From Lysinibacillus parviboronicapiens (lineage in GTDB: Bacteria > Bacillota > Bacilli > Bacillales_A > Planococcaceae), in NCBI RefSeq assembly GCF_003049575.1, contig NZ_PYWI01000002.1, positions 124,001 through 188,000 on the forward strand: 64,000 bases of DNA. The letters run 5' to 3'. The position numbers and the translations under genes are program-made. Of the stretch, positions 15,731 through 62,798 are shown one piece after another (position 1 is the stretch's first letter; the number at the start of each line of letters is the position of its first letter). The notes beneath the pieces are model-generated. The model was not told where the DNA came from. It did not search any database and was given only the letters and a program-made list of their open reading frames with translations.

Positions 15731-15750
15731 CATCAATAACAAGATGTATT

Positions 15751-15826
15751 GCTCCCTACGTCAGTATTAACTAACAGGTTCAAAGGGTCAGGTTTTACCT
15801 TCTCAACTCAAGACGAGTCCCCCTGC
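15751..15826 (-). promoter_or_regulatory. TPP riboswitch (THI element) of thiMDE
   Basis: The minus strand carries the THI-box blocks in order: agggggac, gttgagaaggt, acctgaccctttgaacctg, taatactgacgtagggagca. These form the thiamine pyrophosphate aptamer. An intrinsic terminator follows, so TPP binding should stop transcription of thiMDE. Confidence 0.95.
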
Positions 15827-16024
15827 AATCATGATTTTAGTTGACCAAAATGTACCATACTTTTTCTCGGTGTTCAATAGCGATTTCCAATTATCATAAA
15901 AGCAGTGACTGTTGCCATATAAAGAAGTATGATAGTTGTCATGACTTTTCAAAATTAAGGCTTCTTCCATTGAAAATCAAGAAAAATGAGTTTTATAATG
16001 GGCATAGCGAAGGGGGCATATGCC

Positions 16025-45404: not shown

Positions 45405-45526
45405 TAGCATGTAAGATTCACATTACGGGGCTATACTAATTTATAGAAACCCCCTATATAGTTTGATAAGACGAAAAGTTGCTTGCTAAGCATTCATGCA
45501 CATGCATAGATGTTTTATCCCGCATA

Positions 45527-45708
45527 ACGGTCAGTAATTTATCTGTTCCGAAAGCGAAGCGTCAGGTACAAAACGCCCACCTCAAGTTGAAAGATGAGCA
45601 CGAGTCAACTTGGTTATCGATCAACTGACCGTAAAAGCCCAATTGGTTCGGGGCAACAGGATGTTGGTCACACAAGCCTTTTCACAGGATGTGAAGGTTG
45701 TAGCTTGT
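45527..45708 (+). ncRNA. Candidate structured RNA element, copy 1 (multi-hairpin, 3' of phoR)
   Basis: The long-range stem acggtcagt/actgaccgt (45527-45535 with 45624-45632) encloses hairpin A (45544-45570, tgttcc/ggtaca with loop aaagcgaagcgtcag) and hairpin B (8-bp stem caagttga/tcaacttg, 45583-45590/45605-45612). Two more hairpins follow: caac-AGGAT-gttg (45654-45666) and ttcaca-gga-tgtgaa (45681-45695), the latter inside acaagc/gcttgt (45672-45677/45703-45708). A plus-strand terminator lies about 80 bases on. No protein is supported here. The nested complementarity suggests RNA; the function is unknown, and it could be a 3'-UTR element or a separate small RNA. Confidence 0.5.
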
Positions 45709-45789
45709 ATTCCTCTATTTATTGTGGGGAATGTAGAAATCCCTCCACTGATTGGAGTTTCATTTTATAGTTGTTGCTACACCGCATAA

Positions 45790-45834
45790 AGAATCTATTT
45801 CCAAAGTTTTTTGGAGATGGGTTCTTTTTGTGTT
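45790..45834 (+). terminator. Terminator after phoR and the structured element
   Basis: The stem agaatctatttcca/tggagatgggttct (with G-U pairs) is followed by ttttt. It would end either the phoPR transcript or a small RNA. Confidence 0.7.
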
Positions 45835-61846: not shown

Positions 61847-62248
<402 letters not shown>

Positions 62249-62250
62249 TA

Positions 62251-62301
62251 TTTGACATAGTCAAATTATTTCTGCGATGAAAGCGAAGCGTCAGTCGCAG
62301 G
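62251..62301 (+). ncRNA. Candidate structured RNA element, copy 2 (3' of rplT)
   Basis: The hairpin tttgac/gtcaaa (62251-62265) is followed by hairpin ctgcga/tcgcag (62272-62277, 62296-62301). Its loop contains aaagcgaagcgtcag (62281-62295), identical to the hairpin A loop of copy 1 near 45.55 kb. The stem bases differ from copy 1 but are complementary. A terminator lies about 40 bases downstream. Confidence 0.5.
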
Positions 62302-62338
62302 TGTGAAACAAGCAAACACTAAATAAGTGTATCGTAAA

Positions 62339-62370
62339 GATTGATGGATTTTTCCATCAGTCTTTTTTTA
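62339..62370 (+). terminator. Terminator of infC-rpmI-rplT
   Basis: The stem agattgatgga/tccatcagtct (one wobble) runs into seven T residues. Confidence 0.9.
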
Positions 62371-62492: not shown

Positions 62493-62798
62493 ATGACAGG
62501 GCGAAGGGAACAATCTAGTTATAGCGAAATCGAGTTTTGTTTGAGCAAGTGGAAAATTCCCTGTGAGCTTATTCAGTACGAAGGCAGTGGCAAAGAACGT
62601 CAGTCAAATACAATGAGTTGGCAATTCAAGCGCAGTAATTTCTCTGGAGAGCTCCAACAAGCCCTCGAGGAAATAACAACTTTCGCAAAGAATAGTGGTC
62701 CTGCTATCGATTGCTCAGCAGAATCTATTGCTTTTATGTTTCAACAAATAGATAGAAACGAAAAACAGGTGATACTACATATTGCAAAGGTATATTAA
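62493..62798 (+). CDS. Hypothetical small protein
   Basis: I do not recognise this gene. It encodes 101 aa, mixed charged and polar, no TM segment or signal peptide, Cys-containing (FCLSKWKIPCELI). Frame length and composition look coding, but no good ribosome site precedes the ATG at 62493, and it is absent between rplT and ysdA in B. subtilis. It lies 24 bases before ysdA, so it may be the first gene of that transcript. Could also be a degraded remnant. Confidence 0.45.
   Translation: MTGRREQSSYSEIEFCLSKWKIPCELIQYEGSGKERQSNTMSWQFKRSNFSGELQQALEEITTFAKNSGPAIDCSAESIAFMFQQIDRNEKQVILHIAKVY

Follow-up and report, generated by a model that had tools for sequence, protein, structure and literature searches.

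A conserved-loop hairpin module dispersed across Lysinibacillus genomes, with a separate class of copies downstream of rplT

Results

Two copies of a 15-mer lie downstream of plus-strand genes

The window is the whole stretch of DNA analyzed here, 64,000 nucleotides of Lysinibacillus parviboronicapiens (contig NZ_PYWI01000002.1, positions 124,001 to 188,000). The same 15-mer occurs twice on its plus strand, at 45551-45565 (copy 1) and at 62280-62294 (copy 2). The first-pass annotation had seen both, starting the second one base off, at 62281. It had also placed both between plus-strand genes and terminators, which agrees with our data: a PAS/HisKA/HATPase kinase gene, named phoR in that annotation, precedes copy 1 and an LrgA-like gene follows it, while copy 2 follows the gene of ribosomal protein L20. 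The features needed below are these.

45513-45768, plus strand: composite mobile-type repeat of 256 bases with TTTTAT at 45513-45518 and 45763-45768, delimited by relatives with a single TTTTAT and by copies in the genome
45527-45535 and 45624-45632, plus strand: outer 9-bp arms of this repeat, found as pairing arms in the sequence
45538-45571, plus strand: 34 bases absent at the same place in a close relative (G011), by comparison with its locus L239; ends uncertain by a base or two
45544-45570, plus strand: copy 1 hairpin, arms 45544-45549 and 45565-45570, loop 45550-45564, from the sequence and covariance model R1
45583-45590 and 45605-45612, plus strand: 8-bp arms of an inner hairpin, found as pairing arms in the sequence
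45653-45719, minus strand: Rfam RF01690 Bacillaceae-1, 60.2 bits (gathering score 35)
45788-45827, plus strand: terminator-like hairpin after copy 1, consensus match only
61889-62248, plus strand: rplT, ribosomal protein L20 (Pfam PF00453, E 2.9e-50)
62272-62300, plus strand: copy 2 hairpin, arms 62272-62278 and 62294-62300 (one T-G pair), loop 62279-62293, from the sequence, folding, and covariation of orthologues
62336-62365, plus strand: terminator-like hairpin after copy 2, consensus match only

Two copies per 64 kb are by themselves thin evidence. With up to three mismatches, the 15-mer has 5 sites in the window against 1.43 expected, and 3 of 100 shuffles give 5 or more; it is the genus-wide counts given below that place it beyond chance.

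The two stems had been described as different in sequence yet each paired. This holds fully for copy 2, whose stem (ctgcga/tcgcag) is a perfect 6 bp, or 7 bp counting the T-G pair, and whose folding energy of −14.7 kcal/mol (z −2.07) is equalled in 9 of 200 shuffles. It holds in part for copy 1, in which tgttcc/ggtaca pairs at 5 of 6 positions with one T-T mismatch and is weak alone (−4.6 kcal/mol); model R1 gives this copy 47 bits (E 1.1e-11 in its own genome), the sequence being part of the model's training set. The larger structure proposed around copy 1 fared similarly: its outer 9-bp stem and 8-bp hairpin exist, but the 182 nt of 45527-45708 are no more stable than shuffled sequence (z 0.32, with 121 of 200 shuffles folding at least as well), and we reject a single stable fold. 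That larger structure is a mobile-type repeat together with the reverse complement of Bacillaceae-1.

Stem sequence varies around a conserved loop

In each module, a hairpin of about 33 to 37 nt, the 15-mer forms the loop. The outer stem varies freely in sequence; inside it come an internal loop, with GAAA on its 5' side and GNCA on its 3' side, and an inner 2-bp mini-hairpin (pairs G-C and C-G) whose triloop ends in A. We examined 168 copies selected for good outer-stem pairing and an inner loop of 3 nt. Of these, 165 have a triloop with a final A (GAA in 125, AAA in 24, GTA in 11); at the second inner pair, C-G occurs in 154, T-A in 4, T-G in 3, and no pairing in 7. The L. parviboronicapiens genome (G000) also holds variants whose inner stem is GGC/GCC or whose inner loop is long. 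In DNA, GNA loops have unusual stability when closed by GC/GC, and such DNA mini-hairpins are treated in part of the literature.

Stems covary around this loop. With a search pattern that leaves two stem positions free per side, 84 of 111 distinct sites have Watson-Crick pairs at both; across 5,000 shuffles the mean was 43.8 and the highest count 57. All five outer positions are paired in 141 of 372 hairpin windows (32.1 in shuffles), and 125 pair only at three of five without a bulge. The commonest dispersed stem, TGTGC/GCAAC (74 of 350), needs a bulge to pair well. Where exactly one of six pairs is non-Watson-Crick, hairpins outside the rplT set show no excess of G-T (6 G-T, 10 A-C), and the 4 G-T to 1 A-C at rplT are too few to prove an RNA strand.

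The module is abundant in Lysinibacillus

The module is repeated many times across Lysinibacillus genomes and is also present in some other genera of the family. The exact 15-mer was found in 32 of 201 relatives (24 of the 32 genus genomes and 8 others), whereas the reversed 15-mer, our control, was absent from all 32 genus genomes and occurred once in each of two others. Exact copies per genome range from 0 to 179 across the genus (179 in G007, 140 in G015, 128 in G003). A covariance model, R1, built from 41 chosen copies, found at least 53 copies at E ≤ 1 and at least 31 at E ≤ 0.001 in L. parviboronicapiens, with 150 of 2,116 candidates scored. At E ≤ 0.001 it matched 55 of 151 genomes: all 32 of the genus, 21 others of the family, and 2 others of the class. 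Its range within the genus, 3 to 88 copies, is a lower bound with at most 47 candidates scored per genome. In a pattern scan of named species genomes, 64 of 80 loci among the matches listed lie in Lysinibacillus records (94 stretches in total). One of these, from a Lysinibacillus boronitolerans record (L157), and a locus of genome G014 (L057) are alike around the hairpin. The unit is about 36 to 37 nt and often tandem, with 105 of 145 neighbor spacings below 200 nt measuring 36 or 37 nt.

The dispersed, genus-wide family that the first-pass annotation had suspected is thus real: further copies abound and most stems pair, many dispersed ones only with a bulge, so neither of the outcomes named there against the proposal (no further copies, stems that do not stay complementary) was found.

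Two hairpin loci (L112, L116) come from a record titled Arthrobacter beigongshangensis, with 42 to 44% G+C. This is low for Arthrobacter and possibly reflects a naming or mixing problem.

Most copies are intergenic repeats beside or inside larger repeats

We grouped the hairpins of 154 loci, picked for holding the hairpin, into 169 clusters. Only 4 clusters lie inside genes, though 74% of the bases are coding according to a home-made, hexamer-scored gene caller; we used this figure instead of that from a crude open reading frame list, which had put 75 of 257 hairpins inside frames. Multiple copies are present in 78 clusters, 13 of which are strand-mixed. Placement was read from 121 clusters, namely the 139 that lie between two genes minus loci with similar flanking genes: 49 are co-directional in sense, 29 antisense (p 0.03), 25 convergent, and 18 divergent. 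A dispersed 3'-UTR element or small RNA had been suggested, and here the dispersal and the 3'-UTR position of copy 2 stand, but the many antisense, convergent, and divergent clusters do not fit.

Several larger repeat kinds recur within 160 nt of the 169 clusters. The GGAACGGAAATC motif was found at 60 (4 in random windows), a CTTCTTTCAGCA-type arm at 37 (5), a bcr-like arm at 13 (2), and a Bacillaceae-1-type hairpin at 11 (3), with none of these repeats at 49; composite repeats vary in hairpin number. Most copies, copy 1 among them, are dispersed intergenic repeats beside or inside such larger units.

We found no support for mobilization by a Y1 (RAYT) transposase in a genome-level comparison. 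Y1 matches are present in 21 of the 32 genus genomes, but none of the eight genomes with at least 40 exact copies has a full-length match, and Y1 and R1 counts are not correlated across the genus (rank correlation −0.22, p 0.22, 32 genomes). Nor did 14 pairs of loci with and without the unit yield a clean lone insertion, most being paralogous composite repeats or changes of array length.

Copy 1 is a module nested in a mobile-type repeat

As a 34-nt module, copy 1 lies within a younger, TTTTAT-flanked, mobile-type repeat that also carries Bacillaceae-1 in reverse complement. At the corresponding place, four relatives (L241, L242, L243, L248) have a single TTTTAT and no element, and G006 has a remnant of the repeat. 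The gap at this locus is 139 to 166 nt in 15 of 15 anchor-parsed relatives, with 14 further loci outside the parse, against 407 nt in the window. The composite repeat is also present in the close relative G011, which reads CAGTAA-GACGCCC at the point where the window has the 34 additional bases with the hairpin; the difference may be a gain in L. parviboronicapiens or a loss in G011. The two copies are therefore not the same kind of locus, as had been assumed, and copy 1 is not a conserved 3'-UTR element of the kinase gene, its site being empty or without the hairpin in relatives.

The region of this repeat gives 98 matches in its own genome, often partial ones within tandem arrays; a copy on contig C32, with 91% identity across 263 nt, also includes the 15-mer. 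The bcr1-like unit forms tandem arrays, with a period of roughly 107 to 154 bp, at C65:44352-44733, C87:68543-69111, C57:99-450, and C31:33127-33495.

Bacillaceae-1 is a recurrent neighbor

A search of the window with Rfam 15 gave only two families at or above the gathering score, TPP and Bacillaceae-1; the former is an ordinary TPP riboswitch at 15736-15834 on the minus strand. No family reached this score at the 15-mer hairpin, and the best lower match at copy 2 had 25.5 bits against a cut-off of 77, in line with the earlier remark that no Rfam family with this loop was apparent; lower-threshold matches are far under their cut-offs.

The likeness of copy 1 to Bacillaceae-1 (RF01690; PMC2864571 and PMC4333381, each in part) is a true match inside the composite repeat, though one that covers 45653-45719 on the minus strand, outside the 15-mer hairpin. 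Eleven Bacillaceae-1 copies score above the cut-off in the genome, and five of these lie less than 200 nt from hairpin modules, each on the opposite strand. They are the copy in the window (minus strand) and those at C43:219081-219146, C38:13942-14007, C36:38527-38593, and C32:116788-116854. In other genomes both relative orientations occur (e.g., at L189). Part of PMC4333381 describes two CsrA-type sites on the reverse complement of Bacillaceae-1 and an uncertain strand for the family. The opposite-strand copies beside hairpins, together with the one CsrA match in the L. parviboronicapiens genome, fit this published view of the reverse complement as a CsrA-binding RNA.

Copy 2 belongs to a separate class downstream of rplT

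Copy 2 represents a separate class, a hairpin between the rplT stop codon and the terminator that is present in most of the genus and has compensatory changes in place. We inspected the rplT 3' region in 28 genus genomes (L208 to L235, its own included) and found the hairpin in 21, diverged in two of these (L216, L227). Of the others, one kept the stem and lost the loop (L210), one has decayed (L233), and five have no hairpin in the 190 nt shown; the hairpin is hence dispensable. It was not found in two rplT loci of other families (L236, L237).

Among 20 distinct orthologues, identified by position, 96.9% of cells are paired (87.2% in shuffles) and 13 cells show double changes (2.3 in shuffles), a significance that shuffles overstate since the orthologues are related. 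Sliding the structures by 1 to 3 columns gave far lower scores. The number of further pair types is not outstanding, 100 of 500 shuffles being as high.

The class also differs from the dispersed copies in sequence. Counting array members singly, stems of the type GC[ACG][CA][CT] account for 32 of 37 hairpins downstream of rplT and 4 of 350 others, and the loop position preceding CA carries A in 32 of 37 rplT hairpins and T in 208 of 350 elsewhere. The loop columns at rplT are nearly invariant save for the triloop and one position. A stem class nearly its own indicates that the rplT stems evolved at their site, with hardly any renewal from dispersed copies. The occurrence in 21 of 28 genomes and the excess of double changes uphold the earlier reading of copy 2 as a 3'-UTR hairpin, and the sequence comparison suggests a selected RNA hairpin that has long been kept. 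Autoregulation by L20 was considered and rejected, as the Rfam L20_leader match at the rplT 3' end aligns mainly to the terminator and lies 39 bits under the cut-off.

Tandem arrays also occur after rplT, with 4 units in L221 and 11 in L226. The units of the latter (G016) are spaced 39 to 45 nt apart, with some changes between them.

Discussion

The hairpin resembles REP elements in several respects: these, too, are short, dispersed intergenic hairpins with many copies, clustered and carried with other repeats (GTAG and CGTC families; PMC3733652, in part). Unlike REP as described in the part of that paper used here, its loop is conserved and its stem free, no constant GTAG or CGTC tag stands at the foot, and the loop measures 15 nt, against 4 to 5 in the CGTC families. 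It also differs from the RAYT-linked GTAG type in having no genome-level tie to a Y1-type transposase in these genomes. An end-tag comparison failed, as stems vary; among 350 dispersed hairpins, the two most frequent stem types that start with GTAG number 66 and 21, and none of the rplT stem types shown starts in this way. The sequence GGAAAGCGAAGCG, which we take to be the core of Bacillales REP, was rejected as a source of the loop: it matches 58 of 201 genomes with at most 7 copies per genome and is therefore not an abundant repeat.

The host repeat of copy 1 recalls another family, the bcr elements of the Bacillus cereus group, which are tied to TTTAT motifs (PMC6542083 and PMC3446304, each in part). 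It has TTTAT-type flanks (TTTTAT on both sides) and a plain form of 159 nt in L. parviboronicapiens, and is a candidate relative of bcr1. The 15-mer hairpin, which most copies of the repeat in this genome lack, is an addition relative to bcr1. The plain repeat was found in two plasmid records, Pseudalkalibacillus and Klebsiella, and in none named Bacillus. Half of the bcr1-like repeat matches positions 221561-221642 of CP079755.1, a 361-kb Klebsiella grimontii record, with 78% identity, which is unexpected for a Bacillales repeat.

Among titles and abstract openings of openly licensed papers, we recognized no work describing the hairpin; novelty was judged beside parts of PMC2864571, PMC9029176, PMC4333381, PMC8208703, PMC3446304, PMC6542083, PMC2267715, and PMC3733652. 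In behavior the hairpin is REP-like, yet it fails the REP features that were tested.

How did one module come to be both scattered and fixed? We lean, without great confidence, toward two tiers, a dispersed REP-like module that spreads passively and an rplT copy that is kept as a cis-acting 3'-UTR RNA structure. The dispersed copies would spread through slippage and recombination and by being carried on larger repeats; those that are transcribed would be incidental 3'-UTR hairpins. Copy 2 would act in cis as RNA on its own message, presumably by giving the rplT message a structured 3' end that shields it or aids its processing; a protein might read the loop. The sense bias of the dispersed copies (49 to 29, p 0.03) fits a purely passive repeat imperfectly.

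A minimal mobile DNA hairpin is a possible but doubtful explanation. The 36-nt unit would be recognized as single-stranded DNA by a mobilizing enzyme and copied into the junctions and loops of other repeats. Such an origin would agree with the inner GC-GNA-GC, which by the GNA rule is of the extra-stable DNA mini-hairpin type, with the A that ends nearly all triloops (165 of 168), and with the lack of a G-T excess in dispersed stems (6 G-T to 10 A-C); the high and very uneven copy number, the strand-mixed clusters (13 of 78), and the presence or absence of 34 nt at one site point the same way. However, the eight high-copy genomes have no full-length member of Y1, the enzyme family examined, whose counts do not follow those of the hairpin (correlation −0.22), and the 14 with/without pairs include no clean lone insertion.

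Stems could also be maintained neutrally, at rplT as elsewhere, by quasipalindrome correction, that is, by template switching inside the hairpin. This would explain the double changes without function, and 7 of 28 genomes have lost the rplT hairpin, show it decayed, or lack its loop. We consider it unlikely, for correction of stems would not preserve a loop, yet the rplT loop is nearly invariant outside the triloop and one position, and the rplT stems differ from those of the dispersed donors.

That the dispersed 3'-UTR or small RNA copies bind one factor and form a genome-wide regulon, an extension of the idea in the first-pass annotation, is improbable: a conserved loop, a weak sense bias (49 to 29, p 0.03), and the rarity of clusters inside genes (4 of 169) would suit it, but divergent (18 of 121) and antisense (29 of 121) placements are common, exact copies vary from 0 to 179 per genome within one genus, and G-T pairs are not in excess.

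We can also sketch a rather improbable reading in which a 36-nt unit recognized by its loop (GAAA, mini-hairpin, GNCA), and not by its stem, would seed itself into the junctions of several unrelated repeats independently of Y1, and at rplT would have been co-opted as an mRNA 3' end read by a loop-binding protein.

A constant loop on a free stem, with none to well over 100 exact copies per genome in one genus and no transposase of the expected type found, turns the mode of spread into a testable question. The fixed rplT copy beside dispersed copies offers a clean pair in which a selected RNA structure can be set against a mobile DNA palindrome. For annotation, the genus would gain a structured family with a recurrent neighbor, Bacillaceae-1.

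Beyond the rplT terminator, a 101-amino-acid open reading frame without a Pfam match (62493-62798, plus strand) precedes a DUF1294 gene. In several relatives (e.g., L211), a protein start resembling that of the DUF1294 gene lies closely after the rplT terminator.
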